Assembly: GCA_024279425.1 (NCBI GenBank)
Contig: JAJRRO010000106.1
Location: 1 to 64,000 of the forward strand
DNA from: Bacteroidota bacterium
GTDB lineage: Bacteria; Bacteroidota; Bacteroidia; Flavobacteriales; Flavobacteriaceae
Length of the DNA: 64,000 bases
Direction of reading: 5' to 3'
Below the pieces are notes generated by a model. It was not told where the DNA came from, did not search any database, and saw nothing but the letters and a program-made list of their open reading frames with translations. Shown here one piece after another: positions 36,676 through 49,471 of the stretch (its first letter is position 1; the number at the start of each line of letters is the position of its first letter). A program made the translations under genes and the position numbers.

Positions 36676-36701
36676 TCCAGTAGTCGAAATTTAAAATTGA
36701 A

Positions 36702-39671
36702 TTATTTGGATTGTTGTAGGAAGGCCAATAAATCTGCCATTTCTTGATGGTTCATGTTCAGTTCCAATCCCTCGAACATCATTGAAGTGCCGAGTGATAA
36801 AAAATCGGTAATATCGTTTTTATCGAAGGTTCTTTCTTCACCACCCACCATACGCAAACCAATTTTGGTATCGGTTTCATTAAAGATCAAACCAGTAAAA
36901 ATAGAGCCGTCCTTTGCGCGTATCTGATAGTTTAAATATCCGGTATCCACTGCAGCATTGGGGTCAAGAATATCATGCAGCAAAGACTCTTTGCTTTTTC
37001 TGTTAATTTCAGTAAGGTTGGGTCCAACATGTATTCCTAGATTACCATGCCTATGGCATTGGGCGCAAACTGTTTGGAATACTTCTTCCCCTTTTACCGG
37101 GCTTCCCTCTAGGCTCAAAGCAGGACGCATATTTTCTATGGCGTCTTTCCTTGTGACTACGCCAGCGTCTGAGAATAAAACCTCTGCCCGTTGTCTTGTT
37201 TCTTTGTTTTTAGAAAAGAGTAAAACCCTACGTCGTTCCAAATCCAAATTGAATTCACTTAGGTTTACTCGGCCATTTTCCATAGCAGTTAATAATAAAT
37301 CGTGATTATAGGATTTATAAAGAAGGATGTTGGCCGCATGCATTCTGGTTTGGGGACCAAAACCTGACCAAAGTTCAAGAAGTTTGGTGCCAATGGTCCG
37401 GTCATTGGAAGACCTTAATTGCTTTATGGCCTCTATTTGCAGGCCCAATGGTTGTCTATTGTCCAATAGTGAATATAGAAGTACTTTTCTATTACCAAAA
37501 TCGTCAAGACCAATAAGTTGTAATTGGTCCAATCGTTCTTCAGTGGAAAGTGATGTGTCAAAAACCGATTTCATCGCTTTCTTAATTAGACCACCCATTT
37601 TGGATGAGGGTGGAAGTGCCATCGCATATCGCAAGACTGCTGTAGCTTTGATTAAAGTGGGAGAATTATCTTCTTCGATGCCTTCCAAGGATATTGCAAA
37701 TAAATCCTTGGCCTTGTTATCCAATCCTGAATACGAACTATTTTGCCAGCCTCTTGCCAAAGCCTCAATGATTTTGGTCTTTGGGCCAATGGCCATTTTA
37801 TTTTTCTTCAAAGCTCCCAGAAATTGATGTGTTTGCCCAAGGGTACCCTTTTCCCCAATTAATTCGGTAAAGAGCTCAAGAATTTGGAAATGATTTTGGG
37901 TTAGGTTTTGGGAGTTTTGAGCCAGTATATATTTGGTAGATTCAAAAGCATGACTTTGAAGGGCGCTAGCAATCGATTTGATTATCCAAGAATCACTTTC
38001 GGTATCGGATAACATCATCATTAGGGCTTCTCTTATTTCCGCAATATGGTTGGCGAGATCTTTGTCGGGCAAGGTTCCCAATGCAAGGGTAGCCCTCATT
38101 CTTACACGTGCATCCTTATCTTTGGTAAGTGCAATAAGAGGGTTCAAAAAACCACTATCCGACACCAGTCTTTTTTCGGCAATTTTGATTGCATTTTCAC
38201 AAATTTCGGGACTCGTATCTTCAAGACTTGATACTAATATTCTTTTTTCCAGGGCTTCCAATCCGTCCAATGTCCAAAGACTATGTAACCGGGCCAGAGG
38301 ATTGGCCGAATTCTCTAATTGCTGTGCTAGCAAAGGAATAGCCTCCTGCTTGTTCTGGGTAACCAAAAGCCGTTGGGCCGTTGTTCTTGCCCACTGGTTG
38401 TCGCTGCCTAACAAAAGAACCAATTTTTTCAAATCGCCGGGCAAAGGTTGATTTTTACTGCTTTTGTGTCCCTTAGGCGTTATGCGATAGATTCTTCCTT
38501 TTTCCTTCCCCGCATTAAGGTCCATTTTTTTCTCCAATTCATCCGGGATCCATTCAGGATGTTCAATGACCTCCCGATGTATGTCCACTACATATAAAGA
38601 ACCATCAGGGCCCGTAGCCATATTTACGGGTCTAAATGAGCGATCCGAGGAAGCAAGGAACTCGGCCTTATCCCTCTCTCTTTTTGCAGAGAAAGAGCTG
38701 CCATTTTTTGATAGAATATCTAGGTGAACTAGGTTTAAGACACAATCAGCGACCAAAATACTATTGTCAAATGTGTCCGGGAAGGCCCCACCACCATAGT
38801 ACGTAATTCCACATGCCCCAGAAAAATAACCCGATTGCTCGGGATGGTTTACTCTTGTATCCTGTTCCCCAATGGGATAAATTCTAGAAAGGCCATTTTC
38901 GTCGTGATTGGAAATATTTGTCAATGCATGGGAAGGGGATACTGGAATATCTTCAATATAGTGGTCTTCGAACACCAAATGGGAGATGTGCTCCAGATTA
39001 TGCGTTTCATACAAATGACCCCATTTATCAAAGGTGATTTTAAACCCACCTGACGATTCCCCAATACGTTGTAATTTTTGTTTCTCAAGATCAAATCTAA
39101 AATCACCCCCCCTAAGGTCAAGCACCTTTCCAGGGTCAGTTTCAAAATATGGCTTTCCTGAATTTCCACCGTTGGCAGCGTAGATCCAATTGTCGAGTCC
39201 GTAGGTGAGCCCATTAAAATTATGTTGTAGATTACCTGTGCTTAATCCGCCCATGATGATTTTACGTTCGTCTTCCAAACCGTCACCGTTGCTGTCGTTT
39301 ATCCAGAGGAGGTTCGGGGGCGAGGCCACCAAAAACCCTCCCTTATAGGGCAAAAAGGATGAGGCGATTCCCAAGCTATCGGAATAAACCAATCTTTGGT
39401 CATACAGACCATCATCGTTGGTATCCTTAAGTTGGACCAGACGACTATCTGCATCCCTTAGGGGATACCCCGGCATTTCCAATACAAACGTTCGACCATG
39501 TTCATCAAATTTCATTTCTACGGGATCAAATACGATGGGTTCTGAAGCAACAAGCTCCAAATCGAAATCCGGATGTATTTGAAAACCTTCGGGAGGGTTG
39601 ATGGAATTGGTTTGACAATTTAGAAGGAACAACGCTGTGAATACGAATAAGATTGAATTTGGACGGGTCAT
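36702..39671 (-). CDS. PVC-type cytochrome-c lipoprotein with propeller and HEAT repeats
   Basis: A 989-residue exported protein; the ATG at 39671 (MTRPNSILFVFTALFLLNC) gives a lipobox with cysteine 19, whereas the upstream extension is implausible. Residues 30-400 form a propeller-like PVC-type domain (FQIHPDFDLELVASEPIVFD, GPDGSLYVVDIHREVIEHP). Residues 430-830 are HEAT-like repeats (DKDARVRMRATLALGTL). The C-terminus has one heme c motif, CAQCH (in VFQTVCAQCHRHGNLGIHVGP) and a distal axial methionine region. Such proteins are abundant in Planctomycetes and marine Bacteroidota that digest polysaccharides; electron acceptor unknown. Confidence 0.85.
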   Translation of the reverse strand: MTRPNSILFVFTALFLLNCQTNSINPPEGFQIHPDFDLELVASEPIVFDPVEMKFDEHGRTFVLEMPGYPLRDADSRLVQLKDTNDDGLYDQRLVYSDSLGIASSFLPYKGGFLVASPPNLLWINDSNGDGLEDERKIIMGGLSTGNLQHNFNGLTYGLDNWIYAANGGNSGKPYFETDPGKVLDLRGGDFRFDLEKQKLQRIGESSGGFKITFDKWGHLYETHNLEHISHLVFEDHYIEDIPVSPSHALTNISNHDENGLSRIYPIGEQDTRVNHPEQSGYFSGACGITYYGGGAFPDTFDNSILVADCVLNLVHLDILSKNGSSFSAKRERDKAEFLASSDRSFRPVNMATGPDGSLYVVDIHREVIEHPEWIPDELEKKMDLNAGKEKGRIYRITPKGHKSSKNQPLPGDLKKLVLLLGSDNQWARTTAQRLLVTQNKQEAIPLLAQQLENSANPLARLHSLWTLDGLEALEKRILVSSLEDTSPEICENAIKIAEKRLVSDSGFLNPLIALTKDKDARVRMRATLALGTLPDKDLANHIAEIREALMMMLSDTESDSWIIKSIASALQSHAFESTKYILAQNSQNLTQNHFQILELFTELIGEKGTLGQTHQFLGALKKNKMAIGPKTKIIEALARGWQNSSYSGLDNKAKDLFAISLEGIEEDNSPTLIKATAVLRYAMALPPSSKMGGLIKKAMKSVFDTSLSTEERLDQLQLIGLDDFGNRKVLLYSLLDNRQPLGLQIEAIKQLRSSNDRTIGTKLLELWSGFGPQTRMHAANILLYKSYNHDLLLTAMENGRVNLSEFNLDLERRRVLLFSKNKETRQRAEVLFSDAGVVTRKDAIENMRPALSLEGSPVKGEEVFQTVCAQCHRHGNLGIHVGPNLTEINRKSKESLLHDILDPNAAVDTGYLNYQIRAKDGSIFTGLIFNETDTKIGLRMVGGEERTFDKNDITDFLSLGTSMMFEGLELNMNHQEMADLLAFLQQSK

Positions 39672-39856
39672 TTTGGTTGGATGGTATTTTATAGTAAGTG
39701 AACCTTTACAAGGTAACAAATTTGTTTTGGGTTGTACAAATCCCATCACTTTACCAAAGGGGCATATATTAAATTTTTGGAGCCCCATTCTTTTTTAATT
39801 ACATTTAGTGGAACCTATTTGGCACCCTGCCAAATTGTTTTGTAAACCCGAAAATA

Positions 39857-40909
39857 ATGAAATCAGAAAAGAAAGAGATACAGTCCAGACGTCAATTTAT
39901 TGGAAATACATCAGTACTTGCCGCAGGGATGGTACTCGGTGGCTCCTCTCTTTTTGGGGCTCCCTCCATTATCAAATCATATAATAAACCAAATTCGAAG
40001 ATCAATGGGGTGCAAATAGGGTGTATCACCTATTCTTTTAGGAGCATGCAAGATCAAAGTGCTGAAGCCACTTTAAAATATGTCCTGGATTCAGAAATTA
40101 ATGCTATTGAGCTAATGGGAGACCCTGCCGAGATGTTTGCGGGAAAGCCTGCCAATCCCGTGGATCGTCGTGCCTATTATGGTATTATGAGAAAAAAAAG
40201 AGGCGGCACGGAATTATCCGAAGATGAAGAAAAGGAGTTGGCCGATATGAAGGCCCAAAATGATGCTTATAATGTGGATCTTGTAAAATGGAGAACCGGT
40301 GCATCTATGGATAAGTTTGCCAAGCTCAAAAAAATGTACAAATCCGCTGGAGTTGATATATACGGATTTAAACCAAGTGCATTTGGAACAAGGAACACCG
40401 ATGCTGAGATAGATTATGGTCTAAGGGCAGCAAAAGCTCTCGGTGCCAGTCACGTTACCTTGGAACTTCCGGGGGATCATGCCCACACCCTTAAGCTGGG
40501 TACTATGGCCGCTAAGCATGGCATGCATGTAGCCTATCACGGGCATGAGCAGCAAACCCCGACTTGGTGGGATACAGCACTGGGACAATCAAAACACAAT
40601 ATGATGAATTTGGATTTGGGCCATTATATTGCAGCAGGTAATACGGATGCCCAAGAACTCATATCTTCCAAACACAGACGTATCTCAAGTATGCATTTGA
40701 AGGATAGGCAGAATCCCGCAAATGGAAAAAAGAACCAGCCTTTTGGCCAGGGGGATACGCCTATTGTTGATGTACTTCAATTGATGCGCGATGAAAGCTT
40801 CAAATTTCCGGCTTCAATAGAGCTCGAATATGATATACCCGAAGGTTCCAATGCGGTTCAGGAAGTGGCCAAATGTTTGGAATATTGTAGAAAAACATTG
40901 TCATCCTAA
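39857..40909 (+). CDS. Sugar phosphate isomerase/epimerase-like TIM-barrel protein, Tat signal
   Basis: A 350-residue AP-endonuclease-2-type TIM barrel. The N-terminus has a twin-arginine signal (QSRRQFIGNTSVLAAGMVLGG), so it is exported folded. Barrel motifs: IGCITYSFRSM at the start, INAIELMGDPAEM, MHVAYHGHEQQTP, NLDLGHYIAAGN, SMHLKDRQNP and SIELEYDIPEG, which include the metal-binding His/Glu/Asp set of sugar isomerases. Substrate unknown. It is divergent from the cytochrome gene and 57 bp-plus apart, and probably belongs to the same carbohydrate function. Confidence 0.87.
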   Translation: MKSEKKEIQSRRQFIGNTSVLAAGMVLGGSSLFGAPSIIKSYNKPNSKINGVQIGCITYSFRSMQDQSAEATLKYVLDSEINAIELMGDPAEMFAGKPANPVDRRAYYGIMRKKRGGTELSEDEEKELADMKAQNDAYNVDLVKWRTGASMDKFAKLKKMYKSAGVDIYGFKPSAFGTRNTDAEIDYGLRAAKALGASHVTLELPGDHAHTLKLGTMAAKHGMHVAYHGHEQQTPTWWDTALGQSKHNMMNLDLGHYIAAGNTDAQELISSKHRRISSMHLKDRQNPANGKKNQPFGQGDTPIVDVLQLMRDESFKFPASIELEYDIPEGSNAVQEVAKCLEYCRKTLSS

Positions 40910-41060
40910 GTCGTTTGAAAGCTTTTTGATCAGCAAAAAGATAGCTGTGTGATAGGTCTGTAGTGTGGTGGAAATTGTCTGTTGTGTCTAGGTGTAAATA
41001 ACAAGGGAACTTAAATACCCGCTTCCTAGCCTTTTCTGTGTTTTATTCAAAGTGTTTGTC

Positions 41061-41378
41061 ATGTCAACCAAGAATCAATGTAAAAACTGCGAAAAACCTT
41101 TTAATAAGTCGTTTGACTTTTGCCCTTTTTGTGGTCAAGAAACTGCGGATAATCTCACTTTTGGGGTATTGTTCAGTAACACCATCAGTAATTATTTTTC
41201 GATTGACGCGTGCTTTTTCAAAAGTTTTATTCCCCTTATGTCCAAGCCTGGGGTATTGGCCAGGCGTTTTGTTGATGGGAAGCGACTTTCTTATTTGCAT
41301 CCGGCGCAATTTTATCTTTTTATTTCAGTGGTATTCTTTTTTACCCATTGTTATTATTCATTTTGTTCTTTAATTTAG
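41061..41378 (+). pseudogene. DUF3667 gene truncated by the 41.3-kb island boundary
   Basis: Residues from MSTKNQCKNCEKPFNKSFD carry the two CxxC pairs (CKNC, CPFC) of the N-terminal zinc ribbon of DUF3667 membrane proteins and the conserved GVLARRFVDGKRLSYLHPAQFYLF, then the frame runs into foreign sequence (about 41340) and stops after 105 codons. The family normally has about 250-350 residues with more membrane helices after this point. No matching C-terminal half is seen at the right edge of the island, so it was deleted or lies elsewhere. Confidence 0.75.
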
Positions 41379-41646
41379 AAATTAAAATTACAGCAAAGCT
41401 TCCACCAAAACACGAAACAATAGAATTAATAATAAATAAATTATGATTGACATTTCCCAATTGCATTATTGATTTAGGGTCAAAACCTAATCTTCCGAAT
41501 GATTTAATTAAAAAAATACTACCAAATACACCAGCAATGGTATTTCCTATAATACCAAAGGAATATTTTTTAAAAATGTATCCTGTAATATTAGCTCCAA
41601 CTATGCCGATTAAAATACTAATAAGAGAAATTAAAGTATCTGTCAT
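41341..41646 (-). CDS. Small membrane protein, GlsB/YeaQ-like
   Basis: A 101-residue protein with three or four hydrophobic segments (LISLISILIGIVGANITGYI; FGIIGNTIAGVFGSIFLIK; NLFIINSIVSCFGGSFAVIL) and the motif GNTIAGVFGS, reminiscent of transglycosylase-associated (GlsB) proteins. Its stop codon lies at the island boundary, inside the truncated DUF3667 frame. It is the last gene of an apparent cydA-cydB-orf101 operon, 12 bp after cydB. Function unknown. Confidence 0.55.
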   Translation of the reverse strand: MTDTLISLISILIGIVGANITGYIFKKYSFGIIGNTIAGVFGSIFLIKSFGRLGFDPKSIMQLGNVNHNLFIINSIVSCFGGSFAVILISKLKNKMNNNNG

Positions 41647-41658
41647 ATCTATTGAATT

Positions 41659-42732
41659 TTAATGGCCGTAATCCATTTTATCTATTTTACCTCCCATTAA
41701 TCTTTTTTGGATTATCATATACACAAAAAGAAGAATAAAACCAACAATTCCCCAATTTAGAGCTACCGATAAACCATATTCTGTTGTAGCGGTATTGTAT
41801 ATGGTTAGCGATTCGTTTATAGTATTTGTAGAAGGTAAAATTACAGGAAACATTGATGCCAAAGAAGATGTTATTCCTCCAAGGATTAACAAAGTAGAAA
41901 AAATAAAAGCGTGAATTTCTTTTTTTAATTTTTTGATAAAAAATAAGCCTATTAATCCCGTAAAATAAATAATTGGAAATATAATTAAATAGGATTTATC
42001 AATAAAATTATCTAGCGAATTTGAGTTTACAACTTGCCAAATACCTAAAGAAAAAAGTGTTAATATAGCAAGTATAATATTTAGCTTGAAAACTACTTTT
42101 TTTAATCGATGGTTAATTGTTGAGTTAGTTTTTAAAACAATCCAATTTGCTCCGTGAATAGCTAATGTAACCATTGTAATTAATCCTATAATAATAGTAA
42201 ACCAATCGATGACACCTGGATGTTCGGTTAGTGGACTAAAACTGCTATTCCATAAGGGGAGGAAAAAATAATGGCCTTCATAACTAGAAACCCCATTCTC
42301 TACACCTCCCAAGTTTACTCCTCTTACAATATTTCCTAAGGCAATACCAAAAAATAGTGCCAATAATAAACTAGAAATACCGAATGCTTTGTCCCACATA
42401 TCTTTCCACATTTGATAGTTGAACTGACTTCTAAATTCTAGACTAATTGCTCTAAAAACAATTAACCATAACACAATGATTAGTGGTAGATAAAAACCAC
42501 TAAAAACAGATGCATAAAATGTAGGGAAAGCCATAAAAAGCATTCCTCCGGCTGCTACCAACCAGACTTCATTAGAATCCCAAAATAATCCTGCGGATTT
42601 TGCAATTACCTCTTTATCTTTATCTTTTTTAGCTAAAAATAAATGTATGATTCCAACACCAAAATCATATCCATCTAAGATGAAAAACATAACTAAAACA
42701 ACAGATACTATTATAAACCAAAATATTTCCAT
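41659..42732 (-). CDS. cydB: Cytochrome d ubiquinol oxidase subunit II
   Basis: A 357-residue inner-membrane protein with about 8-9 helices. It starts MEIFWFIIVSVVLVMFFILDGYDFGVG, with the canonical CydB N-terminal motif DGYDFGVG, and has the conserved RAISLEFR and WDSNEVWLV segments. With CydA it forms bd oxidase, which reduces oxygen with quinol at high affinity. It is encoded 3 bp after cydA. Base composition is more AT-rich than in flanking chromosomal genes, matching the island. Confidence 0.93.
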   Translation of the reverse strand: MEIFWFIIVSVVLVMFFILDGYDFGVGIIHLFLAKKDKDKEVIAKSAGLFWDSNEVWLVAAGGMLFMAFPTFYASVFSGFYLPLIIVLWLIVFRAISLEFRSQFNYQMWKDMWDKAFGISSLLLALFFGIALGNIVRGVNLGGVENGVSSYEGHYFFLPLWNSSFSPLTEHPGVIDWFTIIIGLITMVTLAIHGANWIVLKTNSTINHRLKKVVFKLNIILAILTLFSLGIWQVVNSNSLDNFIDKSYLIIFPIIYFTGLIGLFFIKKLKKEIHAFIFSTLLILGGITSSLASMFPVILPSTNTINESLTIYNTATTEYGLSVALNWGIVGFILLFVYMIIQKRLMGGKIDKMDYGH

Positions 42733-42735
42733 AAT

Positions 42736-44067
42736 TTAATGTGATTGAGGTCTTGGACCTTGGTGAATAGTTTTACCAACTAATACTAAAAACAACAAAC
42801 CGAGTAGCATATACAACCCTACAAATCCTAATAGAGTAAATAGAGTATTACCTGAAGAAACTGTTGGTGAAACTCCTTCACTTGTTTTTAATAAGCCATA
42901 AACTAAATAAGGTTGTCTGCCTAATTCAGCAACATACCAACCTGTTATATTTGCAATGTATGGAAATGGAAATAAGAACATTATTGTCCACAGTAAAGGT
43001 TTAAAGTTGAATAATTTGTTTTTCCATAAAAAGAATACTGCCAAGAACATAACGCCTATAAAGATAGTGCCCAAACCAACCATAATATGATAGGCATAAT
43101 AGAGTGCTGGAATATTATCTGGTAATTCTTCTTTTTTAAATTGATCCATTCCTGGAATTTGTTTACCCCATTCTTGGTAAGTTAAAAAACTTAATATGTT
43201 TGGTACAGCAATTTTATTGTCTAATTTTTTCTCAACCATATTAGGCTGTCCAATTAATATAATTTCAGCTCCAGCTTCTTCAGTTTCAAAAATTCCTTCC
43301 ATTGCTGCAAATGATGCTGGCTGGTATTTCGCGACATTTTTGGCATTCCAGTCTCCCGTAGGAAATGCTAAAAGGACACTTGAAACTAAACCGAAAATCA
43401 CACCAGTTTTTAAAAACAATTTACCATATTCTACATTTTTATTTCTCAATATATAGAAAGCTCCAACACTTGCCACAACAAACGAAGATGTTACCATTGC
43501 TGCAACTTGGTTGTGTAAAAAGGCAGGTAACAACCAAGGATTAGAGAATAGAGCTGAAAAGTTATCCAACACAAAATTACCATTTTCTAAAATTTCATAA
43601 CCAACAGGGTGTTGCATCCAAGCATTTGTAGCCAAGATAAACCAACCACTTGCCCAAGACCCCAAAAACACTAAAAATCCTGTTAAGAAATGTAGTTTTT
43701 GACTCATTAATTTTTCGCCAAAAATAAATAGTGCCAAAAAGGAGGATTCTAAAAAGAACGAAAACATACCTTCCATAGCTAAAGTTTGTCCTATAATGCT
43801 CCCTGTTAGTTCTGAAAATTTAGCCCAATTCGTACCAAATTGAAATTCCATTGGAATTCCTGTAACAACTCCCATAGTAAAGTTAATAGCAAAAATTTTC
43901 ATAAAAAATTTAGCGGCATCATTATATTTTTCAATATTTTTTCTTAGATATTTCCATTTAAAATAGACAATCAATAAAGATAAGCCCATTGTTAATTGAG
44001 GGAATATGTAGTGAAATGTGATAGTGAATGCAAATTGCAGTCTATCGTAAAAAATTATATCTTCCAT
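42736..44067 (-). CDS. cydA: Cytochrome d ubiquinol oxidase subunit I
   Basis: A 443-residue membrane subunit that binds the hemes and oxidises quinol. H19 (FTITFHYIFPQLTMG) is the heme ligand of helix I; the quinol loop begins GDWNAKNVAKYQPASFAAMEG, close to the canonical motif, and is short (about 90 residues before helix 7), giving a total length below the 520 of the long-loop type. With cydB it forms one operon in the accessory island, with no cydX or cydDC genes nearby. It probably confers growth at low oxygen. Confidence 0.94.
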   Translation of the reverse strand: MEDIIFYDRLQFAFTITFHYIFPQLTMGLSLLIVYFKWKYLRKNIEKYNDAAKFFMKIFAINFTMGVVTGIPMEFQFGTNWAKFSELTGSIIGQTLAMEGMFSFFLESSFLALFIFGEKLMSQKLHFLTGFLVFLGSWASGWFILATNAWMQHPVGYEILENGNFVLDNFSALFSNPWLLPAFLHNQVAAMVTSSFVVASVGAFYILRNKNVEYGKLFLKTGVIFGLVSSVLLAFPTGDWNAKNVAKYQPASFAAMEGIFETEEAGAEIILIGQPNMVEKKLDNKIAVPNILSFLTYQEWGKQIPGMDQFKKEELPDNIPALYYAYHIMVGLGTIFIGVMFLAVFFLWKNKLFNFKPLLWTIMFLFPFPYIANITGWYVAELGRQPYLVYGLLKTSEGVSPTVSSGNTLFTLLGFVGLYMLLGLLFLVLVGKTIHQGPRPQSH

Positions 44068-44095
44068 TCTCTCTGTTTTTTTTAATGCGCGCTGA

Positions 44096-44452
44096 CTACA
44101 GCACTAAACGTAGTGCTGTGATTTCTACGGAAATATAGTTAAATCGGACAACTATCGTTGGTAAAACTGACTTGTACTTATGTTTTGGATTCCCGACTAT
44201 AGGTTGCCAAGAAGGCTCGCAGCGGCCGTATCTTGTCGATTTCGCGGTATTGGGAGTATAAATTGCAGTGCCAAATTATTTTTAGTGGCCGTTCTTGTCA
44301 GTTAGGGCTCGATGCCCATCTGCGGTGATCACTAATGTTTAAGGCAGCAGTTGTAATTTGGTTTAGCGCTGTGGTTCGAGTCGATTTACTTTAAGACCGG
44401 GAGTGCGTGGTACGAAGGGATTAAAGTTCACTGCAGGTGAATTGACTCGAAC
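44096..44452. repeat. 357-bp direct repeat, copy 1 (structured, non-coding)
   Basis: This block matches 49059-49416 in the same orientation with about 17 differences and one indel (about 95% identical). It starts CTACAGCACTAAACG and ends GACTCGAAC. It contains hairpins: ACAGCACTA/TAGTGCTGT near the 5' end, and a large terminal one GTTCGAGTC...GACTCGAAC. Neither copy contains an ORF of note. The copy lies between cydA and site A. Confidence 0.9.
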
Positions 44453-44620
44453 GGTTTTGTATAAAAATAGTAGCTTCTTGGCTCACGTGCGATACGGAAG
44501 CATCAGCGTGCGAATCAGCTAAGGCAAGCCTTACTATTTTTTTAGATTAAAGATATAATAATTTGTAGAAGTTCAAGCCTTCCTGGGGTTAAGCTATTTT
44601 TTTTATACTTTGTTGTATGT
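44448..44620. other. attC-like recombination site A
   Basis: Outer AAC (44450-44452) pairs with GTT (44612-44614). Arm 1 is GTATAAAAA plus TAGCTT (44459-44476, bulge TAG) after a 6-base spacer GGTTTT; arm 2 is AAGCTA plus TTTTTTTTATAC (44591-44608), then a 3-base spacer. The 6/3 asymmetry is the same as in site C. The site overlaps the end of repeat copy 1 and lies 3' of it, before the DUF302 gene. Confidence 0.5.
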
Positions 44621-44706
44621 AGGCTTTTTTCAATTTCTGATATATTTGGCACAAATTCATACCTATGAAATATTTCAACCGAAATAATTAATAAATGGAT
44701 TAATAT

Positions 44707-45096
44707 CTATATATTTTCAATGACTCTTTTCAACTTTTCTCTTATTTGAACCGCAATATCTCCTAAAGATTTATTTTCTACTGAAACCATTGAAGATAAA
44801 GGGTCTACAGCAGAAATTTCAATATCACCAGGTTCCTTTTCTTGAATTATAACATTGCAAGGAAGCATCGTGCCTATTTTATCTTCAGCTTGTAATGCTT
44901 TGTAGGCAAATGGAGCATTGCAAGCGCCCAAAATTTTATAGTTATAGAAATTTACATTTAATTTTTTCTTCAAAGTTGATTTTATATCAATTTCTGTAAG
45001 AACGCCAAATCCTTCTTTTTGAAGTTCTTTAATTGTTTTTTCAATTGCTGCATCAAATGTTGCGTTGCTCATGGTAGTTTTAAAGTAATAATCCAT
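44707..45096 (-). CDS. DUF302 domain protein
   Basis: The ATG at 45096 (MDYYFKTTMSNATFDAAIEK) fits the family start better than one 10 codons upstream. The 129-residue cytoplasmic protein has the DUF302 core: LQKEGFGVLTEIDIKSTLKK, YKILGACNAPFAYKALQAED and IGTMLPCNVIIQE, with two conserved cysteines. DUF302 proteins are widespread in bacteria and some are tied to redox or metal stress, but no reaction is established. It is a likely cassette between sites A and B, AT-rich and on the minus strand. Confidence 0.85.
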   Translation of the reverse strand: MDYYFKTTMSNATFDAAIEKTIKELQKEGFGVLTEIDIKSTLKKKLNVNFYNYKILGACNAPFAYKALQAEDKIGTMLPCNVIIQEKEPGDIEISAVDPLSSMVSVENKSLGDIAVQIREKLKRVIENI

Positions 45097-45161
45097 CTTT
45101 TCATTTAATTTTATAAAATAGTTCATAAATATTCTTTGCCTAAACTGTTTTCAGCTTGCAT

Positions 45162-45180
45162 ACAACGGTCCTGTGTATGG
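45162..45180. other. attC-like site B, left half
   Basis: ACAAC (45162-45166), then GGTCCT (6 bases), then an arm GTGTATGG, the same AAC-GGTYYY-arm plan as sites A and C. Its mate would be an ACAC arm, 3 bases, and GTT. That arrangement (ACAC-AAT-GTTAGC) occurs at 46654-46666, beyond the IS110 element. Confidence 0.4.
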
Positions 45181-45332
45181 TTAGTTGCGGGAAATCAGTT
45201 ATGATCTTCCGCCGTGGCGCTAAGATAATAATTGTGAGTGAATTTCCGGTGAGGCAATTCCGCCGTAATTAATTATAGCATCGATGAAAAAGCGGTAAGT
45301 CCGGTATCTTTAAATAGCAAAAACTTAAAGAT

Positions 45333-46402
45333 ATGGAAACCCGAATTACTGCTTGCCCTAAGTTATACATAGGGATCGACATTCATAAACGGAGTTGGAA
45401 GGTACATTGTGGCACCCAGCTGTTCGCCGGCAAGTCCTTTAGCATGTCCCCTGATCGGGAACGATTGCTTGCATATGTTGCCAAACATTTCGCGTGCCAT
45501 GAGGTAAGTGTTGCCTATGAGGCTGGATGTTGTGGTCATTATGCGCACCGTTGTTTCGAGAGCTACGGTTGGCGTTCTTTGGTAGTGAACCCTGCGGACA
45601 TCCATCGTAAGGGGAAGAAGCGCCATACCAAGACCGACAGGATAGATGCCCAATTGATCAGCAGGGAGCTCAAAGATGGGCGTTTGGATAGTATTGTGGT
45701 CCCGGAGGTTGAACGCGAGGAATTGCGCAGCCTGTTCAGGAGGAGCAACGACCTGGTGAAGGGCTTTAGAAGGATAAAGAGCTACATCAAGATGCAGTTC
45801 TGTATTTCGGGATCAAGGAGCCTGAGGAGTTGGACAACGACCATTGGAGCCATGCCTACCGTAAATGGTTGGACGATATGGTGTTCATTCACTCGACTGC
45901 CAAGGCGACCTTGGAGAGCAGAATGCGTTTTTTCCGTTTCGTGGACCAAGATCTAAGGGACGTTTCCACACAGCTTAGGAGGTATTGCAAGACCCATTAT
46001 AAGAAAGACTACATGTTGCTACGAAGTATATCCGGTATCGGTGGCATGGTTGCCTGTGGTATCATCTGTGAGCTGGAGAATTTGAGGCGATTCAACAACG
46101 TAAAACATTTGGCGGGCTATGTTGGCCTTGCCCCTGGGGTGTACCAAAGTGGGCGCACCCATAAAACGATTGGCATGACCATGCGGGCGCACCGATTGAT
46201 ACGGAGCTATTTCGTGGAGGCGGCCTGGCAGGCGATACGCGCGGATCCCGTGATGCAGGCGTACTATCGAAAGCACTTGGGCAAGAACGTAAAGAGCATC
46301 ATCATCAAAGTGGCCAGAAAGCTGTTGAGCAAGACCTTGGCGGTGATAAAGACGGGGATACCCTATAAGATAGGGAGTAATAGAATAGAAAAACAACAAT
46401 AA
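45333..46402 (+). mobile_element. IS110 family insertion sequence (core; ends not resolved)
   Basis: A complete-looking but frameshifted IS110 transposase gene spans this interval. IS110 members lack clear terminal inverted repeats, so the boundaries in the flanking non-coding DNA (perhaps 45.19-45.33 and 46.40-46.65 kb) cannot be drawn. It lies between two halves of attC-like site B. Some IS1111/IS110 elements are known to insert in integron attC sites, which would fit. Confidence 0.75.
45333..46402 (+). pseudogene. IS110 transposase with a -1 frameshift
   Basis: The first frame encodes the DEDD RuvC-like nuclease: D16 (YIGIDIHKRSW), E63 (YEAGCCGH), D102 and D105 (KTDRIDAQL), to about KSYIKMQF. 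Near 45800 one base is missing (CAGTTCTGTATTTC should carry one more base), so the second part is in the -1 frame, giving GIKEPEELDNDHWSHAYRKW and the Tnp_20 domain (LLRSISGIGGMVACGIICEL, HLAGYVGLAPG). About 350 residues in all, the family length. A base error or a real inactivating deletion are both possible; programmed shifting is not usual in this family. Confidence 0.85.
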
Positions 46403-46653
46403 CAAAGCTCACAAAGAAGTATTCAAGACCTGTACCACAAAACAACTTGGGTGATGTGTTTGGCACAATCACATATTTATAGCAAGTGGCCAGGTCTATT
46501 ATAACTTACGATCATACAGATGCGGGCGACGATCCGAAAAAAAGACCAATCACACATAGGATGCGGAGCAAGTTATACCAAAACAAGAAAAAGTGGTTTA
46601 AGTAAAAAAACAAAATATTAACTTTGAAGAGCTGGATTAGGTCTTTTCATAGG

Positions 46654-46666
46654 ACACAATGTTAGC
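46654..46666. other. attC-like site B, right half
   Basis: ACAC-AAT-GTTAGC reads as arm end, 3-base spacer and GTT. It pairs with GTGT of the left half (45173-45176) and with its AAC. Only the innermost 4 bases of the arm are well matched, so this pairing is the weakest of the three. Confidence 0.3.
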
Positions 46667-46764
46667 AAAAGTTTTTTGGCCAATTAAATTAATGAAAAAT
46701 CAATTAATCGCATTATCCCCATGCTTAAGTTGTATATTAATGTCCATACCAATACATAACTATT

Positions 46765-47253
46765 ATGAGAAAAAACATTAGATTATTTGGATTTTTAGCA
46801 TTTACGGCTTTAATTCTTTCCGCCTGTGCAGCTACAGAAAAAGAGGAAGTCCTTGATATGGAAAAGGTTAGGGTCGAAATACAAGCAATGGAAGATGTTT
46901 ATGCCGCAGGTGAAAAAGCGAAAGATGCTGATGCGGTGGCTGCGTATTACAGCGACGACGCCATAAGTTATGGCAGAAACAAACAACCTCTTTCAGGTAA
47001 GGCAGCCATCAGAGACAATATTGCAAATAATATTGCAAAAGATACAACTGAAAATTATAATGTATATAAGGTTGTAGACCCATTTGCTGAAGGTAATACT
47101 GCGGCTGAGATTGGTTCCTGGACCGAATTCGATTCTTCTGGTAACGAAAAGGAGAATGGAAATTACATGTCCTATTTCCAGAAACGAGATGGAAAATATA
47201 TATGTGTTCGAGATATGAGTACGACTACATCTCCTGTTAAGTCAGGTATGTAA
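46765..47253 (+). CDS. DUF4440/SnoaL-like (NTF2-fold) lipoprotein
   Basis: A 162-residue lipoprotein; MRKNIRLFGFLAFTALILSAC gives a lipobox with cysteine 21 (the motif core is LSAC). The mature domain has the SnoaL-like NTF2 fold pattern: VYAAGEKAKDADAVAAYYSD (core AVAAYYSDDA) and GRNKQPLSGKAAIRDNI, GSWTEFDSSGNE, GNYMSYFQKRDGKY. NTF2-fold lipoproteins of this type are found in many Bacteroidota; function unknown. It lies in the island between site B and site C and is on the plus strand. Confidence 0.82.
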   Translation: MRKNIRLFGFLAFTALILSACAATEKEEVLDMEKVRVEIQAMEDVYAAGEKAKDADAVAAYYSDDAISYGRNKQPLSGKAAIRDNIANNIAKDTTENYNVYKVVDPFAEGNTAAEIGSWTEFDSSGNEKENGNYMSYFQKRDGKYICVRDMSTTTSPVKSGM

Positions 47254-47288
47254 GCTAAAAAATAGCGCAATACATTGAATAAATTTTT

Positions 47289-47354
47289 GCTAACGGTCTC
47301 GCATATGAGTAGGATGTGGCGATAGCAAGTCTTATCTCATATGCATTGTTATGT
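47289..47354. other. attC-like recombination site C
   Basis: GCTAAC (47289-47294), 6 bases GGTCTC, arm GCATATGAG (47301-47309), loop of 26 bases, arm CTCATATGC (47336-47344), 3 bases ATT, GTTATGT (47348-47354). The arm pair is a perfect 9-bp inverted repeat and AAC...GTT closes the outside. At 66 bp it has the size of a compact integron attC. It separates the DUF4440 gene from the adenosine deaminase-like gene. Confidence 0.55.
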
Positions 47355-47384
47355 GGGGAAATATCATTTCGCATCTTAATTTTA

Positions 47385-48926
47385 TCAAGGATATCTACAA
47401 TTAAAATTTTTAGACCTTGGTTGCCAGTTTCGTTCGAAATTTAATATTTCTTGATCCAAGTTTTCAAGAAGAATTCGTCGTGTTTCTGGAGGAACAAAAC
47501 TATACTTTAAACTATTTCTTGCTAGTTGCTTTATTTCTTCCCAGCTAAGCTCAAAGGAAGTTGCAGCAATGCAAAATTCATTACTCATATCAGTTTGAAA
47601 AATACCTGCATTATCCGTATTCAATGTGACAGGGTCATTTGACTGTTCACCATTTTCCGTTTTAGGTACTGCACAACTTTTCTTATTGAAAAGTAATGGA
47701 AAAGGATGATCTTCAAGTTTATTCACAACCCCAAGTAAAACGTTGCTTGTCAAGTTAATTTCAATAGGTGTTCCTTTTCGACAAATCAGATCCCAGGATT
47801 CCATATCATTAACCAAATTCACACCATGTCCGATTCGCTGTGCTCCCAAATTAACTGCCTCAGAAACGTGATCATACCATCCTGGACGATTACTTTCTCC
47901 TGCATGAATAGTCATATTAACATCCCCAAATTCAGCTCGAAGGCTTCCTAACAGATAGTCCATACCTGGTTTGGTAGATAATTCCTGTTCCGGTAATCCT
48001 ACAAAATCAATTCCAATAACAAGATTATTAAAGCGAGATAGTGTTGCTAGGTAATATGCCTGTCTCAAACGGGAATGTAAATATCCTTGCTGCTTTCTTA
48101 AATAACAATCTTTGGTGCACTTAACAGGTTCAAGATCTGTAATTCCACCTGGACTAAGAGGATCACTCCTTTTAATTTGTGCTATAAATTTTGTAATAAC
48201 TTGGGATTGGTTGGAAGAAATAAACTCATTGTTTTGCTCATCAATAGCACTAGAAATATTATCAAGTAAAGTTTCAATTTTAACAGGCTGACCTTTACTA
48301 TCTGATCTGCCATATGGTGACAACTTTAATTCGAGATAAGATATATTATGCGAAGATGCATCTTTCATTGCTTGCTTTACGAGTTTGGGAATCAGATCAG
48401 CATTATCAGTTAAGTCATCTAAAGCACTAAATATATCTCCGAAAGATTTATAGGAATGTTCCTCAGTAGATTTGACATCATTTTGATCAATTATTACGGC
48501 TGATTCCAATTTCTGTTTCTTATCATCAGTAAGATTTTTTAGTAAAAAACAGTTGCTCGGATCACGCAAGCATTTTTGTTGAAGCCTTGTTGGTCTTTTA
48601 GGCTTATCTCTAACATTAAATGGCAAAACAAAACCTATTGTGTCTTTATCGATTACGACTCTGTAATTGTGCTTCACTGCAATTTTAAATAAGTCATCAA
48701 AGTGTATAGCACCTGATAGATGAGAATGGAGTTCTCCTCCTTTTGGCATGTCCTTTAAAAGTTCTGTAATTATCGTAGGATCAGTATTTCTCCATTCATT
48801 AAAACTCTCATCTGTGATGACTTGCGAATATAATGGGATATATGTGAGTAGAAATATTGATGATATTACTGATAAAAATTGTCTAATAAATTGCAATATT
48901 CTAGGTTTTGAAATTGAATTATACAT
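47385..48926 (-). CDS. Exported adenosine deaminase-like metallohydrolase
   Basis: A 513-residue amidohydrolase-fold protein with a signal segment (FLSVISSIFLLTYIPLYSQ). Zinc and substrate motifs: HxH with H67 and H69 (GGELHSHLSGA), MTIHAGESNRPGW (His and Glu), GAQRIGHGVNL (His), and LNTDNAGIF (Asp). In classical adenosine deaminase the last motif is TDDP; here the second Asp is Asn, and DP is AG. Two inserted loops (residues 90-200 and 215-260) lengthen it to the size of extracellular ADGF-like enzymes. It likely deaminates a nucleoside outside the cytoplasm, but activity is unproven. Confidence 0.82.
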   Translation of the reverse strand: MYNSISKPRILQFIRQFLSVISSIFLLTYIPLYSQVITDESFNEWRNTDPTIITELLKDMPKGGELHSHLSGAIHFDDLFKIAVKHNYRVVIDKDTIGFVLPFNVRDKPKRPTRLQQKCLRDPSNCFLLKNLTDDKKQKLESAVIIDQNDVKSTEEHSYKSFGDIFSALDDLTDNADLIPKLVKQAMKDASSHNISYLELKLSPYGRSDSKGQPVKIETLLDNISSAIDEQNNEFISSNQSQVITKFIAQIKRSDPLSPGGITDLEPVKCTKDCYLRKQQGYLHSRLRQAYYLATLSRFNNLVIGIDFVGLPEQELSTKPGMDYLLGSLRAEFGDVNMTIHAGESNRPGWYDHVSEAVNLGAQRIGHGVNLVNDMESWDLICRKGTPIEINLTSNVLLGVVNKLEDHPFPLLFNKKSCAVPKTENGEQSNDPVTLNTDNAGIFQTDMSNEFCIAATSFELSWEEIKQLARNSLKYSFVPPETRRILLENLDQEILNFERNWQPRSKNFNCRYP

Positions 48927-49058
48927 TATTCTTTCTGTTTAGTGATACATAAGACAATAATTTTGGAAATAATATTATTTGAGTTCTAACAGCTTTTCAT
49001 TTTTTAAATTCATTAAATTATTAGTCATTTTGTTGTCATATTCTTTTATCCAACATAA

Positions 49059-49416
49059 CTACAGTGCTAAACGTAGTGCTGTGATTTCTACGGGAATATA
49101 GTGAAATCGGACAACTATCGTTGGGGAAACTGACTTGTACTTATGTTATGGATTCCCGACGATAGGTTGCCAAGAAGGCTGCGCAGCGGCCGTATCTTGT
49201 CGATTTCGCGGTATTGGGAGTATAAATTGCAGTGCCAAATTACTTTTAGTGGCCGTTCTTGTCAGTTAGGACTCGATGCGAATCTGCGGTGATTACTAAT
49301 GTTTAAGGCAGCAGTTGTAATTTGGTTTAGCGCTGTAGTTCGAGTCGATTTACTTTAAGACCGGGAGTGCGTGGTACGAAGGGATTAAAGTTCACCGCAG
49401 GTGAATTGACTCGAAC
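49059..49416. repeat. 358-bp direct repeat, copy 2, with attC-like fold D
   Basis: The second copy of the 44.1-kb repeat, same orientation. AACTACAGTGCTAAAC (49057-49072) pairs over 16 bp with GTTTAGCGCTGTAGTT (49325-49340), with one G-T pair; inside, CCAAATTAC (49235-49243) pairs with GTAATTTGG (49317-49325). A second hairpin GTTCGAGTCGATT/AATTGACTCGAAC closes the 3' end. Copy 1 versus copy 2 changes such as ACAGCAC versus ACAGTGC keep the stem as G-U pairs. It marks the right side of the island. Confidence 0.9.
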
Positions 49417-49439
49417 TAGTTATATCAGTACTAAATATA

Positions 49440-49471
49440 CTGTTATCCCCTTACGTATTTCCGGATAACAG
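49440..49471 (-). terminator. Weak hairpin terminator for the M14 peptidase gene
   Basis: CTGTTATCC / GGATAACAG, a perfect 9-bp stem with a 14-base loop, lies 70 bases downstream of the minus-strand M14 stop. The tail on that strand (TATATTTAG) has few U residues, so efficiency is uncertain. Confidence 0.35.

Follow-up and report, generated by a model that had tools for sequence, protein, structure and literature searches.

An integron-like cassette array beside an attI-like site in a Flavobacteriaceae genome points to a Bacteroidota system that does not use IntI

Introduction

What kind of element has broken into a DUF3667 gene of the flavobacterial genome GCA_024279425.1, and which recombination system could have assembled it? 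The element is an AT-rich block of about 8 kb (~41344-49413) in the first 64,000 nucleotides of contig JAJRRO010000106.1, the stretch analysed here and called the window throughout; it comes from a Bacteroidota bacterium of the family Flavobacteriaceae. A first-pass annotation, made from the letters of the window, had proposed an integron-like array of gene cassettes without a visible integrase, that is, a cluster of attC sites lacking integrase (CALIN). Comparing the block with related genomes, we conclude that it is very probably a cassette array beside an attI-like docking site, part of an integron-like system of Bacteroidota that would not use the integron integrase IntI.

Integron cassettes are promoterless, the platform providing the promoter Pc, and the outer boxes of attC follow the consensus RYYYAAC (R'') and GTTRRRY (R'). 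An additional domain has been named as defining for IntI integrases (PMC9668308) and is described as necessary or essential for integron recombination (PMC9668308, PMC8138268). By default, IntegronFinder 2 calls a CALIN where at least two attC sites lie without a nearby integrase (PMC9024848). Integrons have already been reported in Bacteroidota as a phylum (PMC8618304, PMC9668308); beyond In0, the passage of the IntegronFinder 2 paper on this group gives one complete integron in Bacteroidetes proper, in Salinibacter ruber (PMC9024848).

Results

Three sites in the window, designated A, B and C, share the plan AAC, 6 nt, arm, then arm, 3 nt, GTT, and thus have the attC-like 6/3 asymmetry first noticed in them; B is interrupted. 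A covariance model, R1, was built from 42 non-redundant sites, none of them from the window's own genome, and it recovered all three on the minus strand: site A of a DUF302 cassette (44450-44614; 49.2 bits, E 8.9e-9), site B of a DUF4440 cassette (45164-45277 plus 46655-46663; 47.2 bits, E 2.5e-8) and site C of an adenosine deaminase cassette (47292-47350; 39.1 bits, E 1.5e-6). The match for B extends from the left part of the site into the DNA of an IS110-family insertion sequence (IS). Beyond A, B and C, R1 gave no match in the window with E below 1, and an Rfam search returned no family close to its gathering score. R1 was used in place of a simple site finder, because the latter missed 8 of 15 R1 matches in one array locus (L074) and 3 of 14 in another (L075). 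The AAC-GGTYYY opening that the first-pass annotation had read as part of the plan is typical of these sites but not fixed, GGT following AAC in 259 of 460.

Read on the AACGGT strand, the sites form 21 consensus pairs, and 15 of these show compensatory changes in both partners. At two places in the stem a G.U pair is found, in 35 and in 39 of the 42 sites respectively; on the opposite strand these positions are unpaired, and only 13 pairs form. The AACGGT strand was the more stable in 40 of the 42 sites with RNA fold parameters and in 38 with DNA parameters, the strand difference being smaller with the latter. Folding the window's own sites, a check that had been proposed for them, gave the same preference for A, for C and for a long-stem unit described below. 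Because one strand folds more readily thanks to its conserved G.T wobbles, recombination probably acts on a single-stranded hairpin, as it does in classical integrons.

A cassette that closes into a circle should have ends that complement each other, and we found such complementarity between neighbouring sites. R1 yielded 470 sites in 64 of the scanned loci, or 463 after removal of the 7 sites of L127, which overlaps L081 (two G032 sites are counted twice, L179 and L094 overlapping); AAC and GTT are in place in 434 of the 463. For the 359 pairs of adjacent sites separated by less than 2.5 kb, we compared the 7 bases after GTT with the 7 before the next AAC. Complementarity across the cassette averaged 6.26 of 7 and was perfect in 221 pairs, against 2.77 of 7 for the two sides of one site (n=434) and 2.49 for random pairings; the observed sum of matches was 2248, compared with a maximum of 998 in 5000 permutations. 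The eighth position, beyond the 7-mer, is a G.U pair in 84%. Within the window, five of the six units have complementary ends (6-7 of 7), and unmatched end combinations gave 0-3 of 7, except between two copies of one unit.

Cassette interiors have a median of 667 bp, and 52 of the 359 lack an open reading frame (ORF) of 60 aa. The longest ORF reads towards the cassette's own travelling site in 289 of 307 cassettes, and in 247 of 251 where coverage is at least 55%; ORFs start at a median of 25 nt after GTT. In one genome (G101), the unit made up of a site and its GTT-side segment is present in two copies, each with another left neighbour; the stem thus moves together with the GTT-side segment, and crossover takes place at the AAC side. 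To locate breakpoints, array loci were blasted against each other (at least 85% identity, 300 bp). Among the 147 matches obtained, 75 left ends fell within 3 bp of a predicted crossover, compared with 22 of 2940 random positions; another 25 lay at 4-10 bp, 25 at 11-30 bp, 8 at 31-130 bp and 14 further away. Right ends were within 30 bp in 93 cases, at 31-130 bp in 12 and further away in 42. A 990-bp stretch common to two genera (L077 and L085; 86%) ends 3 and 13 bp from crossovers.

These results bear on the idea that the sites are dispersed hairpin repeats or terminators, like repetitive extragenic palindromic (REP) elements, that merely follow single genes. Such repeats would account for strong hairpins in many intergenic copies, but not for complementarity that joins the ends of a segment instead of the two sides of one site, nor for cargo that switches at the predicted breakpoints; moreover, the nearest site points away from one type of recombinase at every locus counted (below). 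We therefore regard plain repeats as very improbable and continue with the cassette array, a reading on which the first-pass annotation was right: a model built without the window's genome finds its three sites, their cassettes have complementary ends, and about half of the left ends compared fall at predicted crossovers.

Sites of this kind are widespread. The pattern AACGGTYYYGTRTATG... is present in 82 of 149 family genomes, compared with 7 for a reversed control pattern, and many of its matches lie on one strand over kilobases with tyrosine-recombinase matches nearby. R1 sites occur in 44 of 60 relatives, namely in 35 of 37 genomes of the same family (12 of them of the genus, the window's own genome included) and in 9 of 23 from other families of the order. 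At a stricter setting, a phylum sample had R1 sites in 128 of 296 genomes; it includes 30 family genomes, 24 with sites, and the six misses all fall in one genus. The window's own genome has 40 R1 matches at E <=0.01, several on small contigs, and 20 arbitrary regions of family genomes (398 kb), taken as a control, gave a single site at E up to 1. Many recombinase matches lie near contig ends, and several array contigs of the window's own genome are just 3-11 kb long, which suggests that the arrays may break short-read assemblies.

The recombinase genes were followed in two sets of loci. Twelve loci were first picked for nearness to pattern sites, and 40 more were then fetched by score rank (G104, one of the twelve, recurred as L127). 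R1 sites were present in 28 of these 40 recombinase-centred loci (152 sites), against 1 of 20 control regions. The second set comprised 80 named GTDB loci found by recombinase alignment: 23 have sites, with 73 of 76 sites on the expected strand. Going by the titles of their records, all 23 are from Bacteroidota, among them Seonamhaeicola aphaedonensis, Winogradskyella ursingii, Zunongwangia mangrovi and Flavobacterium aciduliphilum, and none of the second-set loci from records titled as other phyla has R1 sites.

Direction and attI were scored on recombinase ORFs with an Arg I to Arg II spacing of 92-93, which skips others such as L297 (spacing 97; one site in the locus); loci without an ORF matching the motif were left out (among site-bearing ones, L101 and L102). 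The scanned loci hold 48 such ORFs, 38 with a site within 4 kb, and the second set holds 54 not counted before, 18 with a site within 4 kb; the sets overlap in L282 (Algibacter onchidii) and L085 of G145, counted once. The nearest site points away from the recombinase in 38 of 38 and 18 of 18 cases, 56 of 56 together. Although the 38 include the twelve picked loci and two chosen by R1 (L208 and L223), neither direction nor attI was a selection criterion. The recombinase gene itself is mostly inverted, its 3' end facing the array (33 of 38 and 17 of 18). Among five R1-chosen loci outside the family, L208 and L223 hold a short-spacing recombinase beside the sites. In these two loci, which belong to genomes outside the class (G216 and G349), the recombinase is shorter (306 and 330 aa) and is oriented divergently, in the classical manner.

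Between recombinase and array lies a candidate docking site. Searching for a border complementary in at least 6 of 7 positions to the 7-mer of the first cassette beside the recombinase, we found one in 34 of the 38 and 17 of the 18 loci. Of these 51 borders, 44 are 27-206 bp from the recombinase gene, six are further away and one is inside the recombinase ORF. One type of attI consists of AACTNGTTATAT, about 36 nt and GGATAA, with the boxes at a distance of 47-49. The right edge of the block carries the same boxes at a distance of 49, as an attI-like site on the minus strand (AACTAGTTATAT...GGATAA, 49414-49470) with no recombinase beside it. In the DNA scanned with it, matches to the AACTNGTTATAT-type pattern lay only at recombinase-adjacent positions and in the window at 49414. 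In a sister genome (G150), the cassette next to the orthologous attI is a different one, of about 782 bp and with ends that match in 6 of 7 positions; this is the kind of variable junction that had been proposed as a check. In the window's own genome, a recombinase gene of the array group is found on contig C82 (L088, G000:C82:1653-2603, minus strand) beside two R1 sites.

We next compared the array recombinases with IntI. Arg I and Arg II are 92-93 apart in 32 of 32 array recombinases, compared with 134 in 10 of 11 IntI proteins (L197 lacks the motif) and 97-102 in 14 XerC/D proteins, and the additional domain of about 42 residues that marks IntI is absent from all 32. Most of them carry an extra N-terminal region. 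None of the ten recombinases tested individually passed the TIGR02249 cut-off for IntI of 265 bits, the best reaching 211. For nine of the ten, the best NCBIfam match was NF040815, the XerA type (131-220.5 bits; one exceeds its cut-off of 220), and the best Protein Data Bank (PDB) match of L075 is XerA (5hxy), with IntI (2a3v) third and a stretch of 2a3v unaligned. An unrooted tree of 57 rows, with no archaeal XerA among them, placed XerC/D in one clade, IntI in another, and the array recombinases on the IntI side of the Xer branch; IntI may sit either inside or beside the array recombinases.

Could the block nonetheless be an ordinary CALIN, left over from a canonical IntI integron with attC sites that merely look odd in this phylum? 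The overall logic is shared (attC-like hairpins, attI, one-directional cassettes), IntI passes the cut-off in 84 of the 296 phylum genomes, and some genomes hold both systems, G216 having R1 sites and a genuine IntI on another contig. However, none of the 149 family genomes reached the IntI cut-off, and of the phylum genomes with an IntI match none belongs to the family and one (G215) to the class; 15 of 15 stretches around genuine IntI genes (4.3-19.9 kb) contain no R1 site; the IntI domain is missing from every site-adjacent recombinase examined; and R' fits GTTRRRY in 22 of 359 cases, which equals chance (1 in 16), although AAC and GTT are kept. We consider an IntI remnant improbable. In the terms of a CALIN, the window has three model sites and no tyrosine-recombinase motif in its ORFs of at least 150 aa, a scan confined to the first 64 kb of the 89.6-kb contig. 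The sites are non-canonical, however, and the recombinase without the IntI domain together with the attI-like site in the window argues for an integron-like platform and not for a CALIN of IntI integrons. A better name for the block is an integron-like platform with no adjacent integrase.

Read on the minus strand from attI, the block runs c1, c2, c3 (gene reversed), c4, c5, cydAB-orf101 and a truncated site, with end matches of 6, 6, 7, 6, 6 and 2 of 7 for the six units. The first unit, c1 (49057-49413, minus), and c5 (44094-44449, minus) are direct repeats of a non-coding long-stem unit of about 356 bp; c1 (copy 2) starts at the attI-like site, and the region 49041-49430 folds with -139 kcal/mol, while c5 (copy 1) has GAC in place of AAC at its left border. 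Cassette c2 (47292-49056, minus) carries an adenosine deaminase-like gene (47385-48926; PF00962), c3 (45164-47291) a DUF4440/SnoaL-like gene on the plus strand (46765-47253; PF14534, PF12680) and c4 (44450-45163, minus) a DUF302 gene (44707-45126; PF03625). Then follow, all on the minus strand, cydA (42736-44067; PF01654, 2e-145) and cydB (41659-42732; PF02322, 4.8e-77) for subunits I and II of a cytochrome bd oxidase, and orf101 (41341-41646), which has no Pfam match. This cargo is as first listed, and Pfam agrees with the named families. At the left edge against DUF3667, the comparison with G150 exposes ...CCC-ATT-GTT (41344-41352, minus), presumably the end of a truncated site.

Four sites had been announced for the block, of which A, B and C stand. 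The long-stem repeat, at first entertained as a fourth attC (site D), is better taken as a whole short cassette present in two copies; these copies, the attI-like right edge and the IS110 inside site B are features that the first-pass annotation lacked. The stem of the ~356-bp unit spans about 280 nt, and the own genome has 10 further matches (L003-L012), several of them partial and many with an AAC-TACAG border; it is perhaps a second, long type of cassette site.

The host gene is interrupted as first described. Its 5' remnant (41052-41343, plus; PF12412, 1.5e-15) breaks off at ~41343, where G150 has a full-length gene of 349 aa; one contig of G150 is collinear with the window as far as 41343, and a second contig is so from 49414 onwards. 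In G154, G032 and G155, the match to the 5' part of DUF3667 lies about 0.8 kb from an M14 peptidase gene, a gap that fits the remainder of DUF3667 and nothing of the size of the block. The block was probably inserted there, between DUF3667 and the M14 peptidase gene, with loss of the 3' part of DUF3667. Two genes to the left of DUF3667 (~36700-40900) have no blastn match at this place in the same three genomes, and a relative of the second is located elsewhere in G032; this stretch is perhaps another insertion next to the block.

The IS110-family element (approximate ends 45278-46654, plus; PF01548, PF02371), with a frameshifted transposase (ORFs 45333-45956 and 45830-46402), interrupts site B a few bases short of the GTT. 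Its presence within the block could suggest a genomic island moved by IS110 or another transposon, the sites being passengers. Yet six of seven related IS110 copies inspected, several from genus members, have an end at the corresponding position in other such sites (L353, L354, L355, L359, L360, L361; L356 differs), the left part of the site being visible in three of these relatives as well, so that the IS appears to target the sites; and the edges of the block are an attI-like site and a truncated site, with no IS ends. A transposon-borne island is accordingly a most unlikely account. For integrons, IS1111 elements that target attC have been described, a group with subterminal inverted repeats (PMC11187229). 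Compared by insertion position, the element of the window, of the IS110/IS1111 family, resembles them in having inserted at a fixed place at the end of a cassette site, but its target is a Bacteroidota-type site.

Discussion

Cassette ends, site structure, breakpoints, the position of attI and the association with a recombinase, all established by sequence comparison, together describe the block as an integron-like platform. According to the mechanism that we propose, each cassette would combine an attC-like hairpin with one gene, probably promoterless, or with none, and in the circular form the complementary 7-mers that lie outside AAC and GTT would come together as a full site. A tyrosine recombinase related to IntI and to archaeal XerA, but devoid of the IntI domain, would be the catalyst and, by crossover at G|TT, would move cassettes between the hairpin sites and an attI close to its own gene. 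The platform of the window, between DUF3667 and the M14 peptidase gene, has no recombinase in cis and was hit by the IS110 later.

With integrons, these arrays share cassettes of one ORF in a single direction, sites exchanged at an AAC/GTT crossover, hairpins that fold better on one strand, complementary cassette ends, and an attI beside a tyrosine recombinase from which the sites point away. They differ in a recombinase devoid of the IntI additional domain and, in most cases, extended at its N-terminus, in site spacers of 3 and 6 nt, in R boxes that beyond AAC/GTT are free 7-mers, and in a recombinase gene that is mostly inverted, with its 3' end towards the array. The XerA or 'integron-like' recombinases (NF040815; PMC8138268) are the closest by family and structure matches; however, the text of PMC8138268 on this group mentions no cassette arrays in connection with members that lack the insertion. 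In the same genomes, XerC and XerD fall into a clade apart from the array recombinases.

Several observations weigh against the platform reading. No site was detected in 12 of the 40 recombinase-centred loci and in 57 of the 80 named loci, and no recombinase ORF turned up in the fetched stretch of L207, L222 and L224, three of the five R1-chosen loci outside the family. The C82 recombinase gene of the window's own genome is frameshifted in this draft assembly, a defect that could be genuine or an error of the draft, and L081, a relative of this recombinase, goes with an attI type other than the window's. Although 75 left ends are within 3 bp of the predicted crossover, 14 left and 42 right ends of the 147 matches lie more than 130 bp from any crossover, and many of these matches are paralogous cassettes of one genome (G014) and so not independent. 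Within the block, the cyd unit ends at the truncated site, and its ends agree in 2 of 7 positions; it thus fails the cassette test, which lends no support to the unusually large respiratory cassette of the first-pass annotation.

We found no reports of such arrays in the open-access literature. Beyond the single locus, the comparisons make it fairly probable that a second kind of integron exists across Bacteroidota, one whose recombinase, devoid of the IntI domain, would move cassettes as folded single strands. Such a system would either have evolved independently or preserve the stage that gave rise to IntI. If this is true, the second kind works with free, cassette-specific 7-bp R arms in place of conserved R boxes, and many assemblies may have been broken by its arrays without this being noticed. 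The same logic without the IntI domain would make the claim that this domain is essential testable, and would offer a natural comparison for the evolution of folded single-strand recombination. Given how many family and phylum genomes carry the sites, much of the gene exchange in Bacteroidota may use a platform that has gone unnoticed.

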